Origin: Leptolyngbya sp. NIES-2104
GTDB lineage: Bacteria > Cyanobacteriota > Cyanobacteriia > Leptolyngbyales > Leptolyngbyaceae
Reading direction: 5' to 3'
DNA length: 64,000 nt
Assembly (NCBI RefSeq): GCF_001485215.1
Contig: NZ_BBWW01000001.1
Location: 558,001-622,000, forward strand
A program made the translations under genes and the position numbers. Shown piece by piece: positions 3-34,873 of this stretch. The notes under the pieces were generated by a model, which worked only from the letters and a program-made list of their open reading frames with translations, ran no database searches and was not told where the DNA came from. The first letter of the stretch is position 1, and each line of letters begins with the position of its first letter.

Positions 3-1943
3 CCGATCGTTTGGCTTGGCGTTGTGGCAATTAGAAAAAAAGCATGGCGACGATTGATTCAATTACTTATTGGGATTGCGATCGCAGGTTCAATCTGTTT
101 ACCGTGGTATCGAACAAATTGGCTAATCATTCTCACGGCAGGAAGACGAGCGACGATCGATAGCGCGATCGCGGAAGGTGATCCGCCTCTCACAAGCCTG
201 TACGCCTGGACATATTACTTCAAAGCGTTGCCCGCTCTCGTGTCTGTTCCATTATTTGTCGTGGGATTAGTGGGATTGCTGCTGTATTGGAAGCGATCGG
301 TGATCCAAGAAGAATGGGAATGGATCGACGGACGCTGGATCAAAACGGCGGATTATGGCGGTTTAGGGCGAAGAGGCTACCGACGCGAAATCTACGATCA
401 CTGGTCGCAATCGGTTCGTTGGTTATTGATTTTCCTTGTTGGTGCTTATATTCTTTGTTCTGCAAATGTGAACAAAGACGATCGCTATATCACACCATTG
501 CTTCCAGTATTAGCGATTCTGTTAGCGCAAGGATTATTACTGTTTCCTGACCGATTGCGAATTTTTCGCTGGGGTGCGATCGTACTTTCAACCCTGCTAA
601 TGGTTGCAAATCTATTGCCCGTTGAATTCAGTCCGAGATTTTTACAAACGGCTCATGCTCGCCACGCTGTACTTTCTGGCAACTGGCATCAAACTGATGT
701 TGTTAATGAAATCATCAGTGCAGAACCGTATTTGCAAAGTACGATCGGGGTTCTACCTTCGCTGCCAGAATTCAATCAACACAATCTCAATTACGCTGGC
801 ACTTTGAGAAATTTCCAGGTTTACGGGCGACAAGTCGGAGCCGATAAAAAGCAGATTGAACCCGATAGTCGATCGCTATCCTGGTACGTGACTAAAACCG
901 GAAATGGGGGCGCAATTCGCCGCCCAGAAGCTTACAACGCTGTCAATCAAACCATCACGAACAGTCCAGATTTTCAGCTTCAGCAATCTTGGAAATTGCC
1001 GGACAAGACCGAATTGAATCTCTATCGACGCTCGATCTCACCCATCCAAGTTGCACCCAATCCCAAACCTGCCGCCCAAGTCCGACTCGAACAAATCCGC
1101 ATTCCGAATCAAGCCGCTCCTGGAAAACCGTTACCGATTACTTACCGTTGGTCAGGTTCTTGGGAGCAACTAAACTCTGGATTGCTGCTGCTCACTTGGA
1201 CACGAGTTGCAGACGATACAACTCCGAAAGATGCGGCTTCAAGATGGTTTCACGATCATGCGATCGCGCTTGGCACTCTGCACTCTCCCGCAAATCCTGA
1301 TAACGCTTCCTTCCAAGTCACAGAACGCCTCGCCGCTCTTCCGCCCGCGAATGCTCAAGGCACTTACACGCTAACGACTGCTTACCTCAATCGAGAAACC
1401 GGAGCAACTTACGCGATCGATAGTCCCGATGTTCGATTAACGATTACCTCCACTGCCGAAGTAGAAGCGCCAGAACTCGATGCCTTGACACAACTTCGCA
1501 CACTAGCGGCGACAATGCCCCAGGGAATCAAAGCACTCGATCGTATTTTCGCCAAAGTCGGACAACTCAATCAATACGATCCGAATCAAGATTACATCAC
1601 GCAAACGAGGCAAATTTTAGAATACCGATCGCAACAAGAGCCGAATAATCTCGAATTTGCTTACGGAGTCGCTTTATCGAATGTGTTAAAACGGCGAGTT
1701 CAACCTGCGATCGACGCTCTAGAACGAGTCACCCAACTCGACGCGAAAAATCCCGCCGCTCATGCTTATCTTGCATTCGTGAATCTGTATGATTTTCGAC
1801 CCGGAGCCGCACAGAAAGCTTTAAATACTGCGATCGCGCTTGATCCGAACCAGAAAGAACTCCGAACTTTGAATGCGGTTGCCGGATTGATGCGAGGAAA
1901 TTTAGTACAGGCATGGACAGAATATCGGCGATCGCAATCATGA
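3..1943 (+). CDS. Membrane glycosyltransferase-like protein with C-terminal TPRs (5' truncated)
   Basis: The reading frame is open to the left edge, so the true N-terminus lies outside the window; the GTG at 24 is only an internal codon. The N-terminal third holds several hydrophobic membrane segments, including a stretch with YITPLLPVLAILLAQG that resembles the last helices of ArnT/PMT-type (GT39) lipid-linked sugar transferases. A soluble, probably extracytoplasmic region follows. The last 120 residues look like tetratricopeptide repeats, with the alternating small and aromatic pattern around PAIDALERVTQLDAKNPAAH. Family knowledge suggests transfer of a sugar from a polyprenyl carrier onto a lipid or protein; the catalytic N-terminal acidic residues cannot be seen here. 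The membrane and TPR calls are firm, the enzymatic role is inferred. Confidence 0.7.
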   Translation, partial: PIVWLGVVAIRKKAWRRLIQLLIGIAIAGSICLPWYRTNWLIILTAGRRATIDSAIAEGDPPLTSLYAWTYYFKALPALVSVPLFVVGLVGLLLYWKRSVIQEEWEWIDGRWIKTADYGGLGRRGYRREIYDHWSQSVRWLLIFLVGAYILCSANVNKDDRYITPLLPVLAILLAQGLLLFPDRLRIFRWGAIVLSTLLMVANLLPVEFSPRFLQTAHARHAVLSGNWHQTDVVNEIISAEPYLQSTIGVLPSLPEFNQHNLNYAGTLRNFQVYGRQVGADKKQIEPDSRSLSWYVTKTGNGGAIRRPEAYNAVNQTITNSPDFQLQQSWKLPDKTELNLYRRSISPIQVAPNPKPAAQVRLEQIRIPNQAAPGKPLPITYRWSGSWEQLNSGLLLLTWTRVADDTTPKDAASRWFHDHAIALGTLHSPANPDNASFQVTERLAALPPANAQGTYTLTTAYLNRETGATYAIDSPDVRLTITSTAEVEAPELDALTQLRTLAATMPQGIKALDRIFAKVGQLNQYDPNQDYITQTRQILEYRSQQEPNNLEFAYGVALSNVLKRRVQPAIDALERVTQLDAKNPAAHAYLAFVNLYDFRPGAAQKALNTAIALDPNQKELRTLNAVAGLMRGNLVQAWTEYRRSQS

Positions 1944-24141: not shown

Positions 24142-24945
24142 CTAATTGCGACCAATCCACTTTTCAGCGTGTAGTCTCTGAACAACGCCCAACACTAAAA
24201 CATCTAAATTCACTTTGCGTTCATCGATCCAGAACGGTTCAAGCGTTGATGGATGCGTTCCAGCGTTAGCTAATGAGAACCCTCGCTGTCCCTGAACGTC
24301 GTCATCAAAAAAGTAAACAGTAAATTGGTCTTGTCCCCGGTTCCAATGCCCGATGACTTGTGAACATTCGACGTGAGTGTAGCCTGGAAGAGGCATCTTT
24401 TGTTTCTGAAACGCGATTTCTACGTCTGGTAGCTCCAACTTCGTCAAAATTTGCTGAAGTGCAGGCACATAGTCCTGCTGCATAAAGTCCGCAAACAGTT
24501 TTGTTTCAGCACCAGGAGCTTTAGATTTCTTTTCTTGTGCTGGCTGATTTGTTTTCTCTTTCGCTGGTTTTGCTTGAGATCCAGGTTTGCCCTTGATACT
24601 CTCCTCGGTCGTTCTAATTCTAGATTCATCTATCTTTGAAGCGTTGGGATTATCTCCACTGACTGCGCTAGGATCAGGGGCATTCGCTGAAGGAATGCTT
24701 GTAGATTCAGCCACCGTTGTACTAACAATATTTTCTTTGACCACATCCTCAGCGACTCTAGCAACACTAATATTTTCTTCTTCGATCGAAGGTGCTTCTT
24801 CAGGAGAATTAGGAGCATCGTCACTAGATTCATCTCTCGCAGCTTGAGGAGCTTTATCTGTTTCTGGCTCGACTGGTTCAGACTGAGATTCACCAACTTC
24901 AGAAGTTTCTTGCTGAGGGAGATTTGTGATTGCTTCGGATGACAT
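24142..24945 (-). CDS. DUF2996 protein with long acidic low-complexity N-terminus
   Basis: Residues 1-145 are disordered and rich in Glu, Ser, Pro and Lys. Residues about 150-267 match the cyanobacterial DUF2996 domain: FADFMQQDYVPALQQ, GHWNRGQDQFTVYFFDDDVQ and STLEPFWIDERKVNLD. The family is largely restricted to oxygenic phototrophs; I can give no established function. The disordered arm is longer than I would expect for the family. Confidence 0.82.
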   Translation of the reverse strand: MSSEAITNLPQQETSEVGESQSEPVEPETDKAPQAARDESSDDAPNSPEEAPSIEEENISVARVAEDVVKENIVSTTVAESTSIPSANAPDPSAVSGDNPNASKIDESRIRTTEESIKGKPGSQAKPAKEKTNQPAQEKKSKAPGAETKLFADFMQQDYVPALQQILTKLELPDVEIAFQKQKMPLPGYTHVECSQVIGHWNRGQDQFTVYFFDDDVQGQRGFSLANAGTHPSTLEPFWIDERKVNLDVLVLGVVQRLHAEKWIGRN

Positions 24946-25228
24946 GAGTGCTTAGCCTGGAACGATTGTTAGAATTCTGTCTCTATCTACTAGCCTAGAG
25001 GCTCAATTGCGTATTTCGTCCTCCTAATTGCTGAGAAGCGAAGAGCCAAATGACCATCAGAATAACTCAGCCGCTTTAATCAACGAAGGAGAAAAACATT
25101 TACTAATTCAAGGTGCTTTTGATCTAAAGTAAATTGACAAGTATTACTAAAGAAGGACGTACAATCTGGTTTTCATCTCCACTGTTATAAGAACAACAAA
25201 CGCTTTTACAAAGCGAAGGAAAATAACA

Positions 25229-26095
25229 ATGCCACTTCACACCATTAAAGACTTTGATCCTCAGTATCAGAATCATTTTGATGATAATATTGTTGGATTT
25301 GATTTGTATGCAGGTACGGACAAAGTGGGTTCAGTTGAAGATTTGCTGGTTGACGATTCAGGCAAGCTTCGCTACTTGATTATCAATACTGGGGCTTGGA
25401 TTTTTGGTAAAAAGGTGTTGTTGCCGATCGGTAGCGCACAGATTGATAGCAAAGGTCGTCGTGTTGTTGTCAATGGCTTAACTCGTACTCAAGTTGAAGC
25501 CCTGCCTCAATATGATGGAAAAATGCCCGTTGATTATGAGCATGAAGAACAGGTGCGGAAGGTGTATCGTCCAATGGCGACGGGCACAGCATCGCTCGAA
25601 AATTCTGCATCACTAAACTACGATCGCAATTCCTACGCCTACGATGATCATGATCCAGCCCTGTACAATCTAGACGAAAGCAAGCATCAGAATTTGCGCC
25701 TGTACGAAGAGCGACTAATCGCCAGCAAAACCCGCGCTAAAACGGGTGAAGTGTCAGTTGGCAAACGAGTCGAAACCGAAACGGCTCAAGTTTCAGTGCC
25801 GATCGAGAAAGAGCGGGTCGTGATTGAACGGACTGCTACCTCCAGTACCGCCGTAACTCCTGACAGCACTGCGTTCCAAGAAGGCGAAGTGGCGCGAATG
25901 GAAGTCTACGAAGAGACTGCCGATGTTCGCAAAGAAGCATTCGTCCGCGAAGAAGTCAGCATCAGAAAAGAAGTCGATCAAAAAACTGTTACGACTGAAG
26001 AAACCTTGCGCCGAGAAGAGCTAGATGTTGATACAGAAGGTCGCCCGGTGGTAGATAAAGGAACCGACTCGCGTTCTAAGAAGCGCCCCAAGTAG
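25229..26095 (+). CDS. PRC-barrel protein with C-terminal DUF2382 (YsnF/AvaK) domain
   Basis: Residues about 15-110 form a PRC-barrel (GFDLYAGTDKVGSVEDLLVD, then LRYLIINTG). Residues about 155-285 are DUF2382: LYEERLIASKTRAKTGEVSV, VSVPIEKERVVIER and KEAFVREEVSIRKEV. The same C-terminal domain recurs in two more proteins within 5 kb. DUF2382 proteins include AvaK, an akinete marker of Anabaena, and stress-related YsnF; their biochemistry is unclear. The protein is soluble and likely cytoplasmic. The start has AAGGA upstream. Confidence 0.85.
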   Translation: MPLHTIKDFDPQYQNHFDDNIVGFDLYAGTDKVGSVEDLLVDDSGKLRYLIINTGAWIFGKKVLLPIGSAQIDSKGRRVVVNGLTRTQVEALPQYDGKMPVDYEHEEQVRKVYRPMATGTASLENSASLNYDRNSYAYDDHDPALYNLDESKHQNLRLYEERLIASKTRAKTGEVSVGKRVETETAQVSVPIEKERVVIERTATSSTAVTPDSTAFQEGEVARMEVYEETADVRKEAFVREEVSIRKEVDQKTVTTEETLRREELDVDTEGRPVVDKGTDSRSKKRPK

Positions 26096-26144
26096 CACTC
26101 TGCTCCATTGCACAACGTTGAGCAATCCTTAACGTTTCAAACGA

Positions 26145-26183
26145 TTCAGGCAAAGCTACCTTTTGGCTCTGCCTGAAATTCTT
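26145..26183 (+). terminator. Probable terminator after the PRC-DUF2382 gene
   Basis: TTCAGGCA pairs with TGCCTGAA, with an inner AGC/GCT pairing after a mismatch, about 50 bp past the stop. The T-tract (ATTCTT) is weak. Confidence 0.5.
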
Positions 26184-26212
26184 AACATAGACTTTCAATA
26201 CAAACGAATAAG

Positions 26213-27709
26213 ATGAAAAAACTTCAATCTCCAGAGACACTGATCACGTCTTTCGCACTACTGCTAACCTTCGTCACTGCTCCTGAGACATTCGCCGCAT
26301 CATTTAAGCTGGATTCAGTCCTAGCTCAATCTGCTCCCGGTGCACCCGCCTCTAACAAAGAAACGGTAAAGATTGATGGCTCAAGCAGCATGAAGGTGAC
26401 GAATGAGATTCGCCAGCAACAGTCTCCTAATACCGATGTTAGAACTAGCTATAACGGCACAAACGCCGCTCTGCAATCTGTCGCGAAAGGTGAAACCGAT
26501 TTAGCTGCAATTGGTCGCCCGCTTACGGCTGAAGAGAAAGCACAAGGATTGGTTGTAGCGCCACAAAAGCGCCACAAAATCGCGATCGTGGTCGGCGCAG
26601 ATAATCCGTTCAACGGCGATTTAACCTTTGCACAGTTCGCCCAAATCTTTCGTGGTGAAATCACAGATTGGTCTGAAGTGGGAGGTGCGCCCGGAGCAAT
26701 TCAGTTGATTGATCGACCGGAAACGAGCGATACTAGACAAGCTCTACAGAGCTACGATATTTTTAAGCAAGCTCCTTTTGTTGCTGCTGCCAATGCGACG
26801 AAACTATCAGAGGATAGCACCGAGGCAGTGGCACAGAACCTAGGAGCGAGAGGAATTAGCTATGCGATTGCGGATCAAGTCGAAAACGTTCCAGGTGTCC
26901 GCGTTATCCCGATGCACAAGACACTGCCCAGTGATCCTCGTTATCCTTACTCTCAACCGCTGGCTTATGCTTATAAAGGACCCACTCCCAACCCCGCTGT
27001 AGCTGCCTTTTTGGGAATTGCAGCTCCCCCTACTGCCAGCGCTGAAGTTCCGGCTTCACCTCAAATTGCCCCGGCTTCACCTCCGGTCGCTCAGGCTCCT
27101 GCTCAGGTAGAAGACGGAGGGTTTCCGTGGTGGTTGCTGTTGATTCCTGCATTGGGTGGATTAGCCTGGTGGTTATTGACGCGATCGCGTCCGACTCCTG
27201 CGATCGCACCTGTTGCAGTGCCGCCCGTGGTTGCAGTTCCTCCGACGGCTCCCGTTACTCCGGTTACGCCAGTTGCTCCCGTGGTTCTGGATGAACAAGA
27301 ACCAAGCATCAAGCTGTACGAGGAAAGATTAGTCGCTGACAAAACTCGGCAGAAAGTGGGAGATGTGGCTTTTGATAAACGAGTGGAAACAGACCAAGTA
27401 CAGGTATCTGTCCCCATTGAAACGGAGCGAGTTGTGATTGAGCGCAGCACTCCAACAGGGTCAGAAACGTTTGCGCCAGGTAACATCGCTTTTGGTGAAG
27501 GGGAAACTCGAATCGAAACTTACGCGGAAACACCAGACATTCACAAGGAAACCTTTGTGCGAGAGGAAGTTAGTATCAGAAAAGAGCTTGATCATGAAAC
27601 TGCGAGTGTTGAGGAAACACTTCGTCGAGAAGAGCTAGACATCGACATGCAATCTGGCACGGACGGGAGCTTGGATGTCGATCGTAATAATGGTCATGTT
27701 AAGAAGTAG
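26213..27709 (+). CDS. PstS-like periplasmic binding domain fused through a membrane helix to DUF2382
   Basis: After a signal sequence, residues about 50-270 resemble phosphate-binding PBP domains: TVKIDGSSSM, TDLAAIGRPLTAEE and NPFNGDLTFAQFAQIFRG. A Pro/Ala linker leads to one transmembrane helix (FPWWLLLIPALGGLAWWLL, about residue 300). A second Pro/Val linker leads to a cytoplasmic DUF2382 domain with LYEERLVADKTRQKVGDV and VSVPIETERVVIER. The topology is that of a transmembrane sensor: anion binding outside, DUF2382 inside. Neither half has a transport channel partner here. The fusion is supported by one uninterrupted frame; the signalling role is my inference. Confidence 0.85.
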   Translation: MKKLQSPETLITSFALLLTFVTAPETFAASFKLDSVLAQSAPGAPASNKETVKIDGSSSMKVTNEIRQQQSPNTDVRTSYNGTNAALQSVAKGETDLAAIGRPLTAEEKAQGLVVAPQKRHKIAIVVGADNPFNGDLTFAQFAQIFRGEITDWSEVGGAPGAIQLIDRPETSDTRQALQSYDIFKQAPFVAAANATKLSEDSTEAVAQNLGARGISYAIADQVENVPGVRVIPMHKTLPSDPRYPYSQPLAYAYKGPTPNPAVAAFLGIAAPPTASAEVPASPQIAPASPPVAQAPAQVEDGGFPWWLLLIPALGGLAWWLLTRSRPTPAIAPVAVPPVVAVPPTAPVTPVTPVAPVVLDEQEPSIKLYEERLVADKTRQKVGDVAFDKRVETDQVQVSVPIETERVVIERSTPTGSETFAPGNIAFGEGETRIETYAETPDIHKETFVREEVSIRKELDHETASVEETLRREELDIDMQSGTDGSLDVDRNNGHVKK

Positions 27710-27902
27710 TTGAGAATTTGCACCAAGGGCTGATTCTACTTCGGTCTTTGTTGCTATCGAGGAAAGCTCTACTTTGTATGGGTAAACGAAAGGGAGCAGC
27801 TTACAGAGTTGGTCAGTAAAAGGTATGTAGCAGCAAGTTGATGAGGATTTAAATCGACTCAAGCAAGTCATGGAAGCAAGGTAGATTTAACTCAAGAACG
27901 TG

Positions 27903-27931
27903 AAGCCTCTTGCATGAGAGGCTTTTTTTTT
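27903..27931 (+). terminator. Strong intrinsic terminator
   Basis: AAGCCTCT pairs with AGAGGCTT around TGCATG, directly followed by a run of T (TTTTTTT). It is about 190 bp downstream of the PstS-DUF2382 gene and fits as its transcript end. The bases between stop and terminator hold no recognisable gene; a short stretch reading DEDLNRLKQVMEAR could be a further gene relic but is too short to name. Confidence 0.85.
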
Positions 27932-27963
27932 GTCTATTTCACTCCGCAGAAGGTCGTCAATGA

Positions 27964-28119
27964 AGTGAACTGCTCTCTACACTACTGGTTGATTTGTCTT
28001 CGATTGTAGGAACACCTGCTACGGTCGTTGTGCGGGATACGTTAAACGCACTGGAGAAACGTCAATCGATCGTTGTTCCTGGCAATCTTGGTAATCAAAT
28101 TTTGGCAACGCTGCTCTGA
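27964..28119 (+). pseudogene. C-terminal remnant of a short-chain dehydrogenase
   Basis: Following an in-frame TGA, the frame reads VGTPATVVVRDTLNALEKRQ and then SIVVPG...ILATLL before a stop. This is the usual C-terminal end of DltE/YqjQ-type SDRs (form ALEKGxSVVVPG, then the NKLLA block). No cofactor or catalytic motif remains. The surrounding 27932-28299 contains nothing else I can identify. Confidence 0.6.
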
Positions 28120-28299
28120 AGAAACACTGCGAGTCGCTCTTCTACTAAGCAGTGCCTTTAGAGGTATATGTAAATGCGGCTTAAGAGTGACGCATCGCAT
28201 CGATCGAGACTCTATTCTCAAGTAAATACAGAGGATTTGCTTGAGCTTGATGAGTAATACCTTGCAAACTAGAGCAGCCAAGGTCGTAAAGGAGGGAAA

Positions 28300-28746
28300 A
28301 TGGGCTTTTTTCAGCAGAGTCGAAGATGGCTAACAACCATTGCGCTAGTCATACTGTTGACGTTTACTACGGCTTGTAGTGCTGCGACCGCGAAAGAGCC
28401 TCAGGCGGCTCGACCGATTCAAACGGCGCAACCAGGTAGCTATGGTCAGCTTGCTCGTGGTAATTCAGTCGTGGGTCAAGACTTCGGCAACTGGGTTGTC
28501 ACGACTAGTCAAGGATTGATTAAAGATGCCTATGTGCGCGATAACAATAAATTAGGTGTTGTAATTTCGTCTCAGGTGCGTCCAACTGAAGTGAAAGACT
28601 TGGCAAAATCTTTGGCTCAAGGCTTCCACAAGAACTTCCCGAACCAAGATTTAACGGTGTTGGTTTATGCTCCTGACAAGAAACTGATTCTAACTGCTCA
28701 ATACGATGAGCAATCGAAACAAGTTCAGTATCAGTCTGCAAGCTAA
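28300..28746 (+). CDS. Small lipoprotein of unknown function
   Basis: The protein has 148 residues with a hydrophobic leader and a lipobox ending in TTAC, so it is probably membrane-anchored by lipid. The mature part (about 110 residues) contains VGQDFGNWVVTTSQGLIKDA and KKLILTAQYDEQ; I do not recognise a family. The start is preceded by GGAGG. The next gene begins 38 bp downstream on the same strand. Confidence 0.7.
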   Translation: MGFFQQSRRWLTTIALVILLTFTTACSAATAKEPQAARPIQTAQPGSYGQLARGNSVVGQDFGNWVVTTSQGLIKDAYVRDNNKLGVVISSQVRPTEVKDLAKSLAQGFHKNFPNQDLTVLVYAPDKKLILTAQYDEQSKQVQYQSAS

Positions 28747-28784
28747 TTGTTAACTTTAGGTGATTGATTTAGGAGATTAGAATT

Positions 28785-29300
28785 ATGTCTAGTAGTGACG
28801 CATATAAACGCCAAGTGATGAATGACCTGGCGGGAGGCAACACAGAAAGCCTCGATGATGCTAGTACCTCACAGGACTATCAAAGCTTTGATGACTTTGC
28901 TCAGAGGTCGTCGCGAGATGAGCGGCACCAATTGTTTAGCCGGTCTTTTCATCCTGAGCAAGTTCCTGCCGCTCAGATGGAACCGGAACTGCAAAAAGCG
29001 ATCACACAAATCAAACCGAACGAGCGCGATGATGTTGCGCGTGAGTTTTTCAGCCATCTGAAAAAGCGCGGCATTCACGATCGCGATTTAGAGAAGCAGT
29101 TAGGACTCTCCTCACACAATCCGAATCGCATGAGCGCTGATGATGTGAGCAAGCTTGCAGGTTTTGCTTATCATAATCATCCGGATGTCTTCCACGAGGT
29201 CTTAGCAGATCAGCCTGCGTTGGTGAAGTTTCTCAGTAATCCGATGATTGGCGCAGCGTTTGGTGCGATCGCGGCGAAATGGTTAGGCGGTCATCGATAA
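28785..29300 (+). CDS. Hypothetical protein of the stress-type island
   Basis: The 171-residue protein is hydrophilic with many His, Asp and Arg and ends in a small Ala/Gly-rich hydrophobic helix (IGAAFGAIAAKWLGG). A tract PNERDDVAREFFSHLKKRGI is predicted helical. AGGAGATT precedes the ATG at good spacing. I do not recognise the family. Its position between DUF2382 genes and small lipoproteins suggests coregulation with them. Confidence 0.7.
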   Translation: MSSSDAYKRQVMNDLAGGNTESLDDASTSQDYQSFDDFAQRSSRDERHQLFSRSFHPEQVPAAQMEPELQKAITQIKPNERDDVAREFFSHLKKRGIHDRDLEKQLGLSSHNPNRMSADDVSKLAGFAYHNHPDVFHEVLADQPALVKFLSNPMIGAAFGAIAAKWLGGHR

Positions 29301-29325
29301 TTTAACGATCAATGATGTCGGTGAA

Positions 29326-29357
29326 GTCAGAAGTCTTCAGCATTCAAGGCTTCTGAC
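29326..29357 (+). terminator. Hairpin downstream of the hypothetical gene
   Basis: GTCAGAAGTCTT pairs with AAGGCTTCTGAC (12 bp, one G-T pair) around an eight-base loop, 25 bp after the stop. It has no T-run, so it may be an RNA-stabilising 3' end rather than a strict terminator. Confidence 0.5.
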
Positions 29358-29523
29358 AATCTAATCCTTCAACTATATCTAAAGATGAAAGAGGACTAGA
29401 TAAACTCTATCTCTGGGAAAATCCCGAAACAGCAGTATTTTTTTAAGTTAGCAGCAAATTTAGAAAGGTTACGGCGTAACCGAGCATGACTGTTATTTTC
29501 ACTTTTTTATTGAGGCATTGAAA

Positions 29524-30678
29524 ATGGTTGTTGGACAGATGAGACATGCAGTTGGAACCTTCCCAACTCGTCAGGCTGCGGATCACGCATTGACTGAATT
29601 GAGACAAAGCAATTTTCCGATGAATCGCGTTTCGGTCGTGGCAAAAGATCACGATCGAGTAGCTGGAGTCGAGACAACGGAACGCATGGGCAACAAAGCG
29701 GATGATGGCGCAAAAGCAGGCGCGACAACAGGCGGGTTGTTGGGTGGCATTGGTGGATTGCTAGTTGGTTTAGGACTATTGGCAATTCCTGGAATTGGAC
29801 CCGTTATGTTAGCGGGTGCAGCAGAGACAGCGCTAGTTACAGCACTGTCCGGAGCCGCGATCGGAGCCGCAACTGGTGGACTCGGTGGCGCATTAATTGG
29901 GCTAGGAATTCCTGAACGCGAAGCAAAGCATTACAGCGATCGTGTTGAAGCAGGTCATTACCTAGTCATGGTTGAAGGGACGGATGCTGAGATCGCACGA
30001 GCAGAAGCGATCCTAAGTCACCGTGGGATCGAATCCTGGGGTGTTTATGATGCACCTAATGCAAGCCGCTCTGTGATGCCAACAGTTGCGACTCCTGCAA
30101 TGGTTCCGCTAGAAGCAAGCTTACCGCTAGAAGCTTCGGCTCCCTTGGGTGGATTTGCTCCGGTTGCCCCGGTTGTAGAGTCGGTTAAACCTGCTCCGGT
30201 CGTTGAACCGACTCCGGTTGCTGCGGTTGAACCTGATCCGATGCCTGTAGTTGCACCTGAAGTTCAACCCGTTAGAGAGGATGATGCAATTCGCTTACAC
30301 GAGGAGCGACTGATTGCAGACAAACATCGAGTGAAGTCAGGTGAAGTCACCGTCGGCAAATACATCGAAACGCAAACCGAGCAAGTTTCAGTACCAATTG
30401 AGCGCGAACGAGTGGTCATCGAACACATGGAGCCAACGACTCTTACTCCGATCGCACCAGATCAAGTTCAGTTTGGTCAAGACGTAGCGCGGGTCGAAGT
30501 GTACGAAGAAGTACCGGAGATTCGTAAAGAAGCTTTTGTGCGCGAAGAAGTTCGGATTCATAAAGAAGTCGATCGTCAAGTCGCACAAGTCGAAGACACA
30601 ATTCGCCGCGAAGAACTGGATGTCGATGTCGATGGTAATCCCATTGTTCAGACTCCCGATCGCGATATCCGTCGCTAA
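29524..30678 (+). CDS. General-stress-type glycine-zipper protein with C-terminal DUF2382
   Basis: Residues 8-60 match the general stress protein 17M-like module (VGTFPTRQAADHALTEL, then VSVVAKDHDR). Next comes a Gly/Ala-rich hydrophobic segment (about 70-130, with GGLLGGIGGLLVGLGLL) of glycine-zipper type that could insert in or bind membranes. A Pro/Val linker leads to DUF2382 (about 255-375), again with HEERLIADKHRVKSGEV and VSVPIERERVVIEH. I use the ATG with GAGG eight bases upstream rather than the TTG two codons earlier. It is the third DUF2382 fusion in the island. Confidence 0.83.
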   Translation: MVVGQMRHAVGTFPTRQAADHALTELRQSNFPMNRVSVVAKDHDRVAGVETTERMGNKADDGAKAGATTGGLLGGIGGLLVGLGLLAIPGIGPVMLAGAAETALVTALSGAAIGAATGGLGGALIGLGIPEREAKHYSDRVEAGHYLVMVEGTDAEIARAEAILSHRGIESWGVYDAPNASRSVMPTVATPAMVPLEASLPLEASAPLGGFAPVAPVVESVKPAPVVEPTPVAAVEPDPMPVVAPEVQPVREDDAIRLHEERLIADKHRVKSGEVTVGKYIETQTEQVSVPIERERVVIEHMEPTTLTPIAPDQVQFGQDVARVEVYEEVPEIRKEAFVREEVRIHKEVDRQVAQVEDTIRREELDVDVDGNPIVQTPDRDIRR

Positions 30679-30712
30679 TACTCAACCATTTCTAACCCTC
30701 AATTTAATTGAT

Positions 30713-31240
30713 ATGAACAAAATTCTTCTCTCTCTACTGAGCGGCGCACTCCTGATTAGTACGATCGGCTGTAACAGTCCCGCTCGTACAAGCAACAGTG
30801 CCGCTGATTCTACCCAACAGGCAGCAAATCAAAGCACAGATAAGCAAACCACTCAAAGCAATCAAAATGATGCCACGAGTGAAACGCGCCGGAGACAACT
30901 CAATGCAGACAATCGTGCCCGCGAAGAACGCAATAACGTTGTCAACGATGGTAGTGCCGAAAATCGCTCTGATGCTGATCTCAAGAGTCAAGTCCGCAAC
31001 AAGCTCGAAGCGAACCTTCCAGCAAGCCAACTGACGGTTGATGCTAAAGACGGCATGGTCAAAGTTGCAGGCACGATCGTTGATGAGCAGCAGCGTCAAA
31101 AGATTGAGCCTTTAACTAGAGAGATCAAAGGAGTGAAAGGCGTTGAAATAAATGTCAAGGTTGACACTGCCGCGAAGCCTGCTGCGCCGAATCCAGATAC
31201 CAAAAATCCAATCAAGGATCAAACCAACAGCAAGCAGTAA
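30713..31240 (+). CDS. BON-domain lipoprotein
   Basis: The frame is open far upstream into the preceding gene, but the ATG followed by a lipoprotein signal (LLSLLSGALLISTIGC) is clearly the start. A Gln/Asn/Thr-rich linker precedes a BON domain: DADLKSQVRNKLEANLPASQ, LTVDAKDGMVKVAGTI and a final GVEINVKV. BON domains bind phospholipid or envelope surfaces and often occur in osmotic or envelope stress proteins. It starts 34 bp after the DUF2382 gene and is probably cotranscribed. Confidence 0.85.
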   Translation: MNKILLSLLSGALLISTIGCNSPARTSNSAADSTQQAANQSTDKQTTQSNQNDATSETRRRQLNADNRAREERNNVVNDGSAENRSDADLKSQVRNKLEANLPASQLTVDAKDGMVKVAGTIVDEQQRQKIEPLTREIKGVKGVEINVKVDTAAKPAAPNPDTKNPIKDQTNSKQ

Positions 31241-31269
31241 GTTGTAGGTTGACCATACCAAAACACGAC

Positions 31270-31308
31270 GGGAGTTAGGGTGAATGACATCCTGACTCCC
31301 TTTCTTTT
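31270..31308 (+). terminator. Intrinsic terminator of the DUF2382-BON operon
   Basis: GGGAGTTAGG pairs with CCTGACTCCC (one G-T pair) around an 11-base loop, followed by TTTCTTTT. It is 29 bp after the BON lipoprotein stop. Confidence 0.85.
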
Positions 31309-31438
31309 CAGTCCGCTTTGTTGGAGAAACTTAATACCAATTTAAACAAACAATGCGACAGATTATGCGGTTACCCGACGATCGTTCGATTTGTTGCATT
31401 AAATGTTCGATTCGGTATAACAATATGTCAAAGTCCAG

Positions 31439-34400
31439 CTATCGAGGAACGTGAGATTCTAGTAAGCTTACAATCGCCTTCAGTAAGGCTTCTGGCTCTA
31501 CAGGTTTTGTGATGTGACTCTGAAAACCGACCTGAAGCGCTCGCTGCTGATCAATTTCTGCGGCATAGGCAGTCAGCGCGATCGCTGGAATGGTTCCACC
31601 TTGACTTGACGGTTTTAATCGAATTTGCTGGAGCAGCATATAACCATCCATTTCAGCCATCCCGATGTCACTGAGTAGCAAATCGGGAATAAACTGTTCT
31701 AACGCTTGTAATGCTTCTATGCCAGACGCAACGGCTTTCACCCTTGCCCCATATTGCTCCAACAGAAAAGTCTGAAACTCACGGGTATCTGGTTCATCGT
31801 CCACTAACAAAATCTGACGACCTGCTAAAGGTACTTCTACATCGATTTGATGATGAGTTGACTCAGATGAAATCGATGCGGTCTGCTGGAGGGTTGGCAA
31901 TTGCACAATGAATGTTGCGCCTTGATTCTCTCCCGCGCTCTCTGCCAGAACGGTACCCCCGTGCATTTCTACAATTTGCCGCACGATCGCAAGTCCCAAT
32001 CCTAATCCGCCAAACTTGCGAGTGGTCGAGCCGTCTTCTTGCCGAAAATACTCAAACACATGGGGTAGAAAACTGGGTGCAATTCCCTTGCCTGTGTCGA
32101 TGACTCGAATTTGAGCAAGACGATTAAGTTGCCGCAGTTCAACGATCACCGCTCCATCGTTAGGAGTGAATTTAACGGCATTAGTGAGCAGGTTCCATAC
32201 CACTTGCTGCAATCGTCCTGCATCTCCAGAAATCGGAGCAATCGAATCATCGAGGGCAAGGGTCATCTGAATGTTTTTCGCTTCTGCTGCTAAACGCACT
32301 GTTTCAACCGCCGCAGAAATGACCGAGGTTAAATTCACAGGAGCCGCTGTGAGGGACAGTTTGCCCTGCATAATCCGTGAGATATCGAGTAGGTCTTCGA
32401 TCAGTTGCGACTGCAATTTGGCATTGCGCTCGATCGTTCTCAAGGCTTCTGTTCTACGGGCTTCGTCGAGTCTGCCGTTTTGCAGCAAGCGTGTCCAGCC
32501 TAAGATTGGATTGAGGGGCGATCGCAATTCGTGTGACAGCACCGCTAAAAACTCGTCTTTGATTCGATTGGCGTTCTCGGCTTGCTCACGGGCGGTTTGT
32601 TCTTGTTCGAGGAGTTGTAAACGGGCTTGCTCAATTTGCTTTTGGGGTTCGATGTCAGTACAAGTGCCAAACCACTGATAGATTTGACCCTGCTCATCTT
32701 TGAGCGGAATCCCTTGACCTAAAAACCAGCGATAACTGCCATCTGCTGCACGAAAGCGATATTCAATTTCGTAGAATTGTCCCCGATTCACGGCTGCCAA
32801 CCAGCGATCGCGGGTCATTTCCAAATCATCGGGATGAATAATCGAGAGCCAGTTTAAGCCGCGCATCTCCTCGGCACTCAAGCCCGTGTAGTTACAAAAC
32901 CGCTGATTGACATATACATTTTGTCCTGCTCCATCGGTAATCCAAACAAATTGAGGAATCGCTTCCGCTAAGAGACGGTAACGGGCTTCACTTTCTCGGA
33001 GTTCTGCTTCGGCGGATTTGCGATCGCTAATATCGCGAGAAGATCCGATGACAAATTCGACTGTACTATCGGCAGCAAAAACGGGATTGAGAATATATTC
33101 AAAATAGCCATCGGTTCCGACTGGATTCGTGTAGGAGGTTTCATCCTTAATGGTTTCGCCCGTCTCAAACACTCGTTGCAGATCGCGCATGATTTGCTGC
33201 TCAACGGCGACGGGATAGTTGAGGTCAGCCATTGTTTTACCGATCGCGGCATCGGCGCTCAGCCCCCACAAATCGAGCAACACCTGATTCGCGTAGAGAA
33301 ATCGCCCGTCTCGATCGAAGCTACACACGAAATCAGTGATCGTCGAGAGCGTGATATCGAACTTTTGCACTTGCCGTTCCAGTTCAGCGCGACTTTCACT
33401 TAAAGCGGCTTCAGCTTTGGCGCGTTCGAGTTTTACCCAAATGCGGCTTGCTAATTCCTGCATCAATTCGATTTCGTCTTCGCGCCAATCGTAAGGGATT
33501 GTATGAAATACGACGAGCGAAAAGCTCCATTTGCCGTGTCTGATCAATGGAATGTTGATTTCTGAACCGATGTTGAGCGCAGCATAGCGAGACGGATCGA
33601 CGACACGCGGATCTGTTGCGTAGTTACGAATCACGATCGGCTGTCCCGCTTTTGCCGTTTGCAGAAGTTCGTCGGTGACAAACTCTTGTAGCGCATAAAC
33701 TCCAACTAAACTGGATCGATCGCTCTGATGCCAATCGTAGTTGATTACTGCTTGATTCAATGGCGCGTTAATTTCGACAAAGGCACAAGCTGAAATTTGC
33801 AAATAGCGATTAAGATCTACGCCGATCGTCTGCACAATTGCGTCTACGCCAACGGTTTCAGCCAGATTTTGACTGACGGTGGCAAAAAATTCTCGGTTTC
33901 GCTCGGTGCGTTTGCGTTTGGTGATATTAGTAAATAAAACGGCGAATTGGTGGTTTTGTGGCTCCCCGATCGCAAAAGCGTTGAGATCAAACGTGCGATC
34001 AAGTGCGATCGAGTGCTGCTCAAATCGAGCGGATTTGCCCGTCCGTACGACGTTCGCATAAATGTCAAAGAAAGCATCTTCGATATCGGGAACGAGTTCG
34101 CGTGCGGTTTTGCCTGTTGGATTTTCCAGTCCTGTTAGCTGTTCAAACGCTGCATTCACTTTTAGAATTCGATAATCAACAGGTTCACCGTTTTGATCAA
34201 ACAGCAGTTCACAGATGCACAACCCTTGATCGATCGACTCAAATAAGGTGCGATATTCTGCTTCGGATTCGCGTCGGGCAGAAGTCGCACGATCGCGCTC
34301 AAACACGATGCTGGCGGTATGTGTCCCCAACTCAGCCAGGTCATATTCCCAACTCGTCGGCATCCGCGCTTCGTCAAAGCACAGCATCAGCGAGCCGAGC

Positions 34401-34873
34401 GGCAAGCCGTCGATGCCGATCACAGGTTTAGAATGACACGCCAGAATGCCGTGAGCGATACATAAGTCGCGCCATTCCTGCGACCAGCGATCGTCGTTGG
34501 CAATGTCGGTACAAGTGATCGGTTCACCGCGATAGACCGCTTCTCCACAGGTTCCAATACAGAGATCATTAATCGGGGCACCTTTCAGTCCTTGTCCAAA
34601 CGAGGGTGGGAGGGCTGACGTGATTAAATTGGAGAAGGTTCGTTGTTGAGCATCGCTGAGTAGAAAGCAGGCTCGACTACGGGGATTGAGCTTAGAAATG
34701 GAAGCACAGACGGCTGCAAGACAATCCTCTAGCGACTGTCCTAATGCAATGCGCTCCAACAAGTGCTTTTGTTCAAGCAGTATCTGTTCAGTCAGCGTGC
34801 AGTCTGCGACAGTTGGCGACTGAGTTTGATCAACCCACTGGGATGCTTGATTCGCAGTTGTTTTCTCAGTCAT
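31439..34873 (-). CDS. Hybrid sensor histidine kinase (GAF-PAS-GAF-PAS-PAS-HisKA-HATPase-REC)
   Basis: Modules in order: GAF about 30-195, PAS 205-325, GAF 330-490, PAS 510-630, PAS 640-755 (PQFVWITDGAGQNVYVNQRF), HisKA with FLAVLSHELRSPLNP near 790, and a HATPase with NLLTNAVKFTP, DTGKGIAP and GLGLGLAIV. The C-terminal receiver has ILLVDDEPD and LLSDIGMAEMDG. There are no membrane helices. GAF and PAS domains bind small ligands or chromophores, but I see no clear bilin-binding cysteine motif. Start and ribosome-binding site (GAGGGGA) overlap the end of the truncated receiver gene upstream. Confidence 0.92.
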   Translation of the reverse strand: MTEKTTANQASQWVDQTQSPTVADCTLTEQILLEQKHLLERIALGQSLEDCLAAVCASISKLNPRSRACFLLSDAQQRTFSNLITSALPPSFGQGLKGAPINDLCIGTCGEAVYRGEPITCTDIANDDRWSQEWRDLCIAHGILACHSKPVIGIDGLPLGSLMLCFDEARMPTSWEYDLAELGTHTASIVFERDRATSARRESEAEYRTLFESIDQGLCICELLFDQNGEPVDYRILKVNAAFEQLTGLENPTGKTARELVPDIEDAFFDIYANVVRTGKSARFEQHSIALDRTFDLNAFAIGEPQNHQFAVLFTNITKRKRTERNREFFATVSQNLAETVGVDAIVQTIGVDLNRYLQISACAFVEINAPLNQAVINYDWHQSDRSSLVGVYALQEFVTDELLQTAKAGQPIVIRNYATDPRVVDPSRYAALNIGSEINIPLIRHGKWSFSLVVFHTIPYDWREDEIELMQELASRIWVKLERAKAEAALSESRAELERQVQKFDITLSTITDFVCSFDRDGRFLYANQVLLDLWGLSADAAIGKTMADLNYPVAVEQQIMRDLQRVFETGETIKDETSYTNPVGTDGYFEYILNPVFAADSTVEFVIGSSRDISDRKSAEAELRESEARYRLLAEAIPQFVWITDGAGQNVYVNQRFCNYTGLSAEEMRGLNWLSIIHPDDLEMTRDRWLAAVNRGQFYEIEYRFRAADGSYRWFLGQGIPLKDEQGQIYQWFGTCTDIEPQKQIEQARLQLLEQEQTAREQAENANRIKDEFLAVLSHELRSPLNPILGWTRLLQNGRLDEARRTEALRTIERNAKLQSQLIEDLLDISRIMQGKLSLTAAPVNLTSVISAAVETVRLAAEAKNIQMTLALDDSIAPISGDAGRLQQVVWNLLTNAVKFTPNDGAVIVELRQLNRLAQIRVIDTGKGIAPSFLPHVFEYFRQEDGSTTRKFGGLGLGLAIVRQIVEMHGGTVLAESAGENQGATFIVQLPTLQQTASISSESTHHQIDVEVPLAGRQILLVDDEPDTREFQTFLLEQYGARVKAVASGIEALQALEQFIPDLLLSDIGMAEMDGYMLLQQIRLKPSSQGGTIPAIALTAYAAEIDQQRALQVGFQSHITKPVEPEALLKAIVSLLESHVPR

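Follow-up and report, generated by a model that had tools for sequence, protein, structure and literature searches.

Within 6 kb of this cyanobacterial genome, three proteins carry the same domain, DUF2382, each joined to a different partner module. Do these genes and their neighbors form one stress system under common control, or have promiscuous domains simply gathered here? We addressed this question in the 64-kb window (the whole stretch of DNA analyzed) and in related genomes.

Composition and layout of the island

The six genes of the preliminary description were all found at 25229-31308 (Table 1). DUF2382 is common to three of the products (PF09557, E = 2.7e-35, 4.1e-31 and 4.1e-31), each of which scores above the curated cut-off for TIGR02271 (YsnF/AvaK) as well as for PF09557. 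The partner of the first domain is a PRC barrel, as had been proposed (Pfam PRC, 3.3e-12), and with 46.7 bits for PF05239 and 121.5 bits for PF09557, P0001 has the PRC plus DUF2382 architecture of the AvaK type. The second domain is joined to a PstS-like module (PBP_like_2, 2.8e-24) through a membrane helix, seen as a hydrophobic segment between the PBP domain and DUF2382. For the third, the proposed stress-protein module held with respect to YflT (4.3e-08), but its glycine-zipper part scored only 14.6 bits against a cut-off of 25. The remaining three genes encode a lipoprotein, a conserved hypothetical protein and a BON lipoprotein (BON, 5.6e-12), in keeping with the original description. For the YflT-DUF2382 gene, the most probable start codon is the ATG at 29524, and an in-frame TTG lies at 29518. 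An Rfam scan of 24900-31500 returned no family at gathering score.

Table 1. Features of the island and its upstream sites, in window coordinates
Feature	Position	Strand	Source
Operator-like palindrome 1 (CTAAAGTAA-N11-TTACTAAAG), end 76 bp upstream of PRC-DUF2382 start codon	25124..25152	.	
PRC-barrel + DUF2382 (AvaK-type) protein P0001, 288 aa	25229..26095	+	
DUF2382 domain 1, residues 156-267	25694..26029	+	Pfam
P0002: signal-like segment, PstS-like PBP domain, membrane helix, Pro-rich linker, DUF2382; 498 aa	26213..27709	+	
PBP_like_2 domain; nearest solved relative Sll0540 (9l8j)	26348..27013	+	
Membrane helix FPWWLLLIPALGGLAWWLL, P0002 residues 304-322	27122..27178	+	hydropathy
DUF2382 domain 2, residues 366-477	27308..27643	+	Pfam
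Terminator-like hairpin 3' of unit 1	27902..27925	+	
Operator-like palindrome 2 (CTCAAGTAA-N11-TTGCTTGAG), end 54 bp upstream of LIPO3 start codon	28217..28245	.	
LIPO3, small lipoprotein without family assignment, 148 aa	28300..28746	+	
HYP4, conserved protein without family assignment, 171 aa	28785..29300	+	
YflT/glycine-zipper + DUF2382 protein, 384 aa	29524..30678	+	
DUF2382 domain 3, residues 258-369 of frame from 29518	30289..30624	+	Pfam
BON-domain lipoprotein, 175 aa	30713..31240	+	
Terminator-like hairpin 3' of unit 3	31270..31300	+	

The whole genome encodes six full DUF2382 proteins and one half-domain match, and because three of the six full copies lie within these 6 kb, their clustering exceeds chance. 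The island looks like three putative transcription units rather than one: PRC-DUF2382 with PBP-TM-DUF2382 (unit 1), LIPO3 with HYP4 (unit 2), and YflT-DUF2382 with the BON lipoprotein (unit 3). We rejected a single six-gene operon on account of the terminator-like hairpin and second palindrome between units, with the qualification that such hairpins number seven in the region against a shuffle mean of 7.0 and are thus not in excess.

Conservation of the neighborhood was borne out in part: pieces of the island are kept well beyond the genus, but the complete six-gene set was found in this genome only. Of 79 HYP4 loci, 77 have LIPO3 at a distance of no more than 6 kb, and the other two start at a contig end. 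Within the same distance of HYP4, PRC is found in 17 of the 79 loci and DUF2382 in 20, where six genes spread over 6.39 Mb would give about 1%. An AvaK-type PRC-DUF2382 gene is often upstream of the LIPO3-HYP4 pair, including in Nostocales. Outside the window, BON is the next gene after YflT at 12 of the 13 loci in related genomes (all but L068), eight of the 13 having been chosen through their YflT match; in a wider set, just 3 of 12 YflT loci have a BON gene within the retrieved stretch.

Pfam gave no family above cut-off for LIPO3 or HYP4, and we took their scattered Pfam scores (E 0.0025 to 0.1) and PDB scores (E at least 0.3) as chance. The predicted fold of LIPO3 has a confident core (pLDDT of at least 90 in 87 of 148 residues), and its best matches in the PDB are weak (Foldseek, 3e-3). 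Among these, the Listeria sex-pheromone precursor lipoprotein (Z 8.7 over 93 residues, rmsd 3.5) is tied with other small alpha/beta domains.

A PBP-helix half joined to DUF2382

Judged from its sequence, P0002 is a rare domain swap, in which the PBP-helix half of a widespread DUF4912-carrying family is joined to DUF2382. Among the matches listed, the PBP-DUF2382 fusion occurs in 2 of 42 family genomes, this one and that of Leptolyngbya sp. FACHB-36 (G008), and the two proteins form a single clade in both trees (100/99 for PBP, 94/92 for DUF2382). The domain scan found no DUF4912 in either fusion; 12 of the 14 non-fusion PBP proteins scanned carry it. Cyanobacterial PBP_like_2-TM-DUF4912 proteins resemble P0002 in having a signal-like segment, an acidic loop residue in the PBP domain and a Pro-rich linker, but have DUF4912 where P0002 has DUF2382. 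One 810-aa protein of this family (L077) has an FPWWLL-type membrane helix, as in P0002, and is 49% identical to P0002 over 388 columns that include the helix, which is almost identical in the two proteins. With P0002 as query, 246 of 388 genomes in the class sample gave a match at 1e-30, which may fall in either half of the query, indicating a large, apparently uncharacterized receptor family. Hydropathy of P0002 reveals one N-terminal hydrophobic segment and a second at residues 304-322, and we infer a topology in which the PBP-TM half would hold DUF2382 on the cytoplasmic face of the membrane, below a periplasmic ligand-binding domain.

The ligand bears on a link to phosphate that the preliminary description had drawn and that is now weakened. 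In E. coli PstS, phosphate is bound by a Ser-Gly-Thr loop. P0002 has Ser-Asp-Thr instead of the Ser-Gly-Thr of phosphate binders, so that phosphate sensing is doubtful, and an acidic residue replaces the Gly of the Sll0540/clostridial PstS loop in all 23 aligned clade members (15 of 38 rows were left out for frame). A phosphate-linked stress island, whose PstS-like domain would sense inorganic phosphate and signal via DUF2382, could still draw on the PBP_like_2 match, on a TIGR02136 PstS-subfamily score under the cut-off (76.8 against 206.6 bits, 1.6e-21), and on Sll0540, the phosphate-binding-like nearest solved relative (9l8j, PBP domain, E 3.7e-47), whose Nodularia relative is given as a phosphate-binding protein in PMC3610870. 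However, Sll0540 has the SGT loop and was solved as a 242-residue chain without membrane helix or DUF2382, and visual inspection of the ORFs at 22.1-34.9 kb revealed no pst transporter genes. We regard phosphate sensing as very unlikely and abandoned it as the leading reading over the altered loop.

An operator-like palindrome and a candidate regulator

Upstream of units 1 and 2 lies a palindrome with the consensus CTNAAGTAA-N11-TTACTTNAG, whose half-site centers are 20 bp apart, or approximately two helix turns. With up to three mismatches, it occurs at these two places only in the window (four matches counting both strands against 0.36 expected, for a pattern composed after its sites were seen). 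Across 58 genomes, 13 places match with at most one mismatch, and nine of these are in the genus (8 genomes), compared with four places for a reversed-pattern control, none of them in the genus. Eight of the nine genus sites lie at LIPO3 or PRC-DUF2382 promoters and the ninth inside a coding frame, counts that are partly circular because the palindrome was itself discovered upstream of LIPO3 genes in this genus. At up to two mismatches the palindrome falls to background (25 places versus 28 for the control in 8 genomes), with six places versus three in this genome.

The palindrome precedes the first gene of units: PRC alone in G008 and G009, LIPO3 wherever LIPO3 leads, and both in the window, where the terminator-like hairpin separates them. 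No palindrome or shared motif was seen upstream of unit 3. The palindrome is also absent from a further pair of PRC-DUF2382 genes in this genome (L064 and L065). We set aside a coiled protein pair (L172) as a third regulon target, for its site proves little, having two mismatches within a promoter that is conserved throughout. One protein of this pair has a YtxH score below cut-off.

In 11 genomes, a divergent XRE gene lies no more than 0.9 kb from LIPO3 or PRC-DUF2382, and in 10 of them a palindrome with at most three mismatches lies between the XRE gene and its divergent neighbor. Palindromes of this stringency number 34 in the 1,857,895 bases of scanned loci, some of which are counted twice. 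With this adjacency, the XRE-type protein is the likely regulator; its pairing with the palindrome and the direction of control are inferred. One XRE copy (L038) is barely above the HTH_3 cut-off (23.5 versus 23 bits), L107 is an XRE-adjacent locus without a palindrome, and in L072 and L074 the XRE gene is 4.3 and 2.1 kb from a YflT gene, again with no palindrome. There is no XRE gene beside the island in the window, and a small XRE-type regulator would act here in trans, binding the palindrome ahead of units 1 and 2. Candidate XRE genes lie at G000:C1:405968-406480 and, as a further copy, at 1332834-1333319.

Instead of serving as a DNA operator, the palindrome could act in the transcript, as a hairpin of the 5' leader that controls stability or translation. 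Its end is 15-17 nt from the start codon in several relatives. Folding is strong at the LIPO3 site (z -4.8) and at the sites of L063 (z -5.6) and L044 (z -3.7), and weaker at that of L038 (z -2.4). However, the PRC-DUF2382 site retains the consensus yet hardly folds (z -0.5), the distance to the start codon is highly variable, and sites lie between divergent genes, some of them paired about 200 bp apart. We consider an RNA element improbable and favor a DNA operator.

A probable general-stress island and its relation to known proteins

The locus is probably an AvaK/YsnF-type general-stress island of three units, with units 1 and 2 under XRE-palindrome control and unit 3 a separate stress module that lacks the palindrome. 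Support comes from sequence, in the form of domains, gene pairs, the palindrome with its genome-wide specificity, XRE adjacency and the domain swap. Desiccation, osmotic or membrane stress would turn the units on. DUF2382 is highly charged and consists of two similar halves, and the structure model of P0001 has a pLDDT of only about 30-40 across it; the domain may be disordered. Most likely, DUF2382 would provide a stress-induced assembly or protective surface, sited variously by its partner module, and might, as the preliminary description had it, serve in docking.

Alternatively, promiscuous stress domains may have gathered by chance or through a loose relation to stress, with no common control and with the fusion as neutral domain shuffling. 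The restriction of the complete set to one genome, the rarity of the fusion among the matches listed (2 of 42), the low frequencies of DUF2382 near HYP4 (20 of 79) and of BON with YflT in the wider set (3 of 12), and the missing palindrome at unit 3 would all fit, but the pairs far exceed chance, both for LIPO3-HYP4 and for DUF2382 relative to its 1% expectation, and near-perfect palindromes are almost restricted to these promoters within the genus. We consider such a gathering unlikely. A bolder form of the stress-island reading, which we put forward only tentatively, is an undescribed regulon in which an XRE-type repressor and 29-bp operator would govern AvaK-type DUF2382 and LIPO3/HYP4; in one lineage, the receptor half of the PBP-DUF4912 family would have been wired in, with a non-phosphate periplasmic ligand recruiting or releasing DUF2382 assemblies on the cytoplasmic side of the membrane.

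To our knowledge, AvaK/YsnF proteins have been of use as markers of stress, with no mechanism established, and Zhou and Wolk reportedly described an akinete marker gene in 2002. The predicted regulator-operator pair, the LIPO3/HYP4 partners and the natural receptor-DUF2382 hybrid offer direct handles. Removal of just one or two genes would put the regulon to the test. The hybrid, for its part, suggests the side of the membrane on which DUF2382 works and that it can fill the DUF4912 slot.

The earlier view that no such system had been described holds for the island and operator, of which we found no description in the open-licence text of PubMed Central, a corpus outside which most subscription journals lie. 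It does not hold for AvaK-type proteins, which are known stress proteins, so that the base of the island is of a known kind. According to PMC7660261 and PMC6584798, AvaK and its upstream paralogue rose 6.7- and 9.5-fold in an alkane-overproducing Nostoc, and a homologue reportedly rose in desiccation and UV. Npun_F5451-F5453 and AvaK of Nostoc and Anabaena are likewise AvaK/YsnF-like PRC-barrel proteins, adjacent and co-induced (PMC7660261), to which the island adds LIPO3-HYP4, the PBP-TM-DUF2382 hybrid, the YflT-DUF2382/BON pair and the predicted XRE operator; the hybrid, the palindrome and the divergent XRE candidate are new here. The general stress proteins YsnF and YflT of Bacillus have the DUF2382 and YflT domains, but in this cyanobacterium the two are fused together and to other modules. 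A DUF2382 match was also present in Bacillus subtilis.

Layout of the island and nature of its shared domain

The six genes at 25229-31240 are a genuine stress island, of a known kind and conserved in part; what is new is its hybrid member and a predicted operator/regulator pair. The preliminary description had placed the DUF2382 (YsnF/AvaK) domain on three N-terminal modules, and this was confirmed: three such proteins lie within 6 kb on three different modules, accounting for half of the six full DUF2382 proteins in the 6.39-Mb genome. Intergenic gaps and hairpins suggest three transcription units (genes 1-2, 3-4 and 5-6); the terminator-like hairpins lie 3' of genes 2 and 6, at a hairpin frequency no higher than in shuffles. 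A hybrid histidine kinase gene converges on the BON gene.

Features of the island and related loci (plain positions, window; L, fetched locus; C1, contig 1 of NIES-2104)
Feature	Location	Strand	Remark
Gene 1, PRC-DUF2382		+	288 aa; DUF2382 at C-terminal end
Gene 2, signal-PBP-helix-DUF2382 hybrid		+	498 aa; DUF2382 at C-terminal end
Gene 3, LIPO3		+	lipoprotein; between DUF2382 genes
Gene 4, HYP4		+	conserved, family unknown; between DUF2382 genes
Gene 5, YflT/glycine-zipper-DUF2382		+	384 aa; DUF2382 at C-terminal end
Gene 6, BON lipoprotein		+	after DUF2382 genes
Histidine kinase	31439-34873	-	large, PAS/GAF-type hybrid (label by eye)
Palindrome before gene 1	25124-25152		promoter-type
Palindrome before gene 3	28217-28245		promoter-type
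Palindrome before LIPO3 copy 2			promoter-type
Palindrome before PRC-DUF2382 copy 2			promoter-type
Palindrome inside frame	contig 2		frame resembles efflux component
Palindrome before coiled protein pair	near C1:5531235		two mismatches
Coiled protein pair	L172:86-661, 701-1444	-	NIES-2104
LIPO3-HYP4 copy 2	C1:404775-405747 (L038)		divergent XRE gene, palindrome between
XRE genes, NIES-2104	405968; 1332834
PBP-TM-DUF4912 paralogues, NIES-2104	L066:5278-8883; L067:5241-7847
Half-DUF2382 proteins	L092:6616-7371; L103:7755-8291; L064:8310-8783		adjoin PRC-DUF2382
Long YflT proteins	L054:11088-12893; L070:7492-9219; L071:7963-10347		BON follows
Paired palindromes	L043:10028, 10229; L048:7371, 7583; L145:1363, 1568		between XRE gene and neighbour

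DUF2382 is present in 31 of the 58 genomes compared (NIES-2104 included), none of which has three full DUF2382 proteins equally close apart from NIES-2104 itself; in genome G057 a 2-kb stretch contains three of the domains, spread over two frames. DUF2382 is highly charged, with 45 charged residues among the 113 of the gene-1 domain. By eye, DUF2382 consists of two similar halves, and half-domain proteins exist (L092, L103); at both of these loci the short protein occupies the slot held by the hybrid in the window. Structure prediction for DUF2382 gave no confident fold, and the domain may dock to itself, coat membranes or stay disordered. PMC7660261 reports that AvaK and a neighbour are induced in alkane-overproducing Nostoc punctiforme and says that they accumulate under butachlor. 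A review (PMC6584798) describes the AvaK homologue alr4050 as upregulated under desiccation and mentions comparable findings for UV and dehydration. By homology, these accounts support a stress role for the island.

Origin and ligand of the hybrid protein

The closest solved chain to the hybrid PBP domain is Sll0540 (9l8j, 3.7e-47). Residues of the SGT loop bind phosphate in E. coli PstS, and the loop reads SGT in Sll0540 and clostridial PstS. It is replaced in all 23 clade members aligned (SDT in 21, SDS in one, SET in one), and because of this alteration the hybrid PBP probably binds something other than phosphate, or nothing. The suggestion that the common domain links envelope, phosphate and stress signals should thus lose its phosphate part unless binding is shown.

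Near relatives of the hybrid are long and share its signal-like segment, its PBP domain and a membrane helix, with DUF4912 behind the helix in 12 of the 14 scanned. In one of them, from L077, the helix is nearly identical (FPWWLLGIPLVGGLLWWFL, against FPWWLLLIPALGGLAWWLL in the hybrid). These PBP-TM-DUF4912 paralogues form a large cyanobacterial family with several members per genome. The family is apparently uncharacterised; the one open-licence paper found for DUF4912 concerns cotton.

Among the matches listed, from the 42 genomes of the family, PBP and DUF2382 share one frame only in NIES-2104 and in Leptolyngbya sp. FACHB-36 (G008), whose gene layout is that of locus L095. In the complete DUF2382 list, the other full-length frames span 154-430 aa, too short for an added PBP, except for a two-domain 587-aa frame in G057. 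No better match was found in 388 genomes of the class, with four candidates scored per genome. The two hybrids form one clade in both the PBP tree (100/99, 20 rows) and the DUF2382 tree (94/92, 34 rows), and the simplest reading is that they arose once, by domain swap.

Conserved blocks around LIPO3 and HYP4

LIPO3 was found in 23 and HYP4 in 22 of the 58 genomes, adjacent or nearly so wherever both were called on one contig. Scanning genomes of 84,980 species for HYP4 gave 149 relatives, and neighbours within 6 kb were counted in those 79 of the best 80 loci that had a called HYP4. Besides LIPO3, present in 77/79, 22 loci had a membrane protein of 1000 residues, 20 had DUF2382 and 17 had PRC; CsbD-like and CAAD-like membrane proteins, both labelled by eye, were present in 15 and 13, YflT in 11, the XRE gene in five, BON in two and PBP in one. 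All of these are lower bounds because contig ends cut many loci. Chance would place DUF2382 within 6 kb at about 1% of loci (six genes in 6.39 Mb).

PRC-DUF2382 lies directly upstream of LIPO3-HYP4 in Nostoc, Scytonema, Komarekiella and others, and the order LIPO3, HYP4, YflT-DUF2382, BON is repeated in G001, G004, G006 and G034, in some with intervening genes. Outside the window, 12 of 13 related-genome loci have BON behind the YflT gene, eight of the 13 having been fetched for their YflT match; in a wider set it occurs in only 3 of 12 YflT loci, within the stretch fetched. Conservation of the neighbourhood, a point raised by the preliminary description, therefore holds for recurring blocks but not for the six-gene set, which was seen only in NIES-2104, and the island is made up of these blocks. 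Three long YflT proteins followed by BON have no DUF2382 match; two contain two YflT stretches, and that of L071 is fused to a PRC barrel.

A predicted operator and its candidate regulator

Aligning the DNA upstream of LIPO3 revealed a palindrome, CTNAAGTAA-N11-TTACTTNAG. Among 102 LIPO3 upstream regions, 8 contain it with no more than one mismatch, versus none in shuffles. All eight belong to the genus of NIES-2104, and one genome, which has two locus ids, is counted double. Of 25 regions upstream of PRC, only the one in the window contains it. At up to three mismatches the window has only the two tabulated places, for a pattern composed after these sites had been seen; the whole genome has six at up to two mismatches, versus three in the control. 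Across the 58 genomes there are 13 one-mismatch places, nine of them in the genus, with eight of the nine at LIPO3 or PRC-DUF2382 promoters; the other four fall in three genomes that lack a close XRE homologue and resemble background. With the pattern reversed as a control there were four such places, none in the genus. Only near-perfect palindromes are informative, since two-mismatch places in the genus (25) do not exceed the control (28). Some of these promoters served to define the motif, which makes the genus evidence partly circular; that the motif is nearly missing from the rest of the same genomes is not subject to this circularity.

The candidate regulator is an XRE protein of 164-181 residues with an HTH_3 domain barely over the cut-off in the one copy scanned. 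In 11 genomes its gene is divergent from LIPO3 or PRC-DUF2382 and less than 0.9 kb away, and the palindrome (at most three mismatches) separates the two in 10 of them, L107 being the exception. In three of the ten (G005, G009, L145) the palindrome occurs twice, about 200 bp apart, as if one of each pair served XRE autoregulation. A further copy, in L063, trails a palindrome-bearing PRC-DUF2382 gene by 2 kb, and those in L072 and L074 lie 4.3 and 2.1 kb away from a YflT gene that lacks the palindrome. Close homologues (at least 58% identity) number 12 in 11 of the 58 genomes, all 11 with DUF2382 genes. There is no XRE gene beside the island in the window; NIES-2104 has two elsewhere.

G008 and G009 have PRC-DUF2382, (hybrid), LIPO3 and HYP4 in close succession, and there the palindrome precedes only PRC-DUF2382; where LIPO3 comes first, it precedes LIPO3; and in the window, where a terminator-like hairpin separates the two units, it precedes both. 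Because its placement tracks unit boundaries, which is the best argument, we predict that the palindrome is a DNA operator. It could instead act as an RNA hairpin at the LIPO3 site, which folds (z -4.8), but not at the gene-1 site, which barely does (z -0.5). The island and the predicted operator/regulator pair are worth a bench test. The coiled protein pair with a two-mismatch palindrome in front also occurs in G003 and G004 and is a possible third target.
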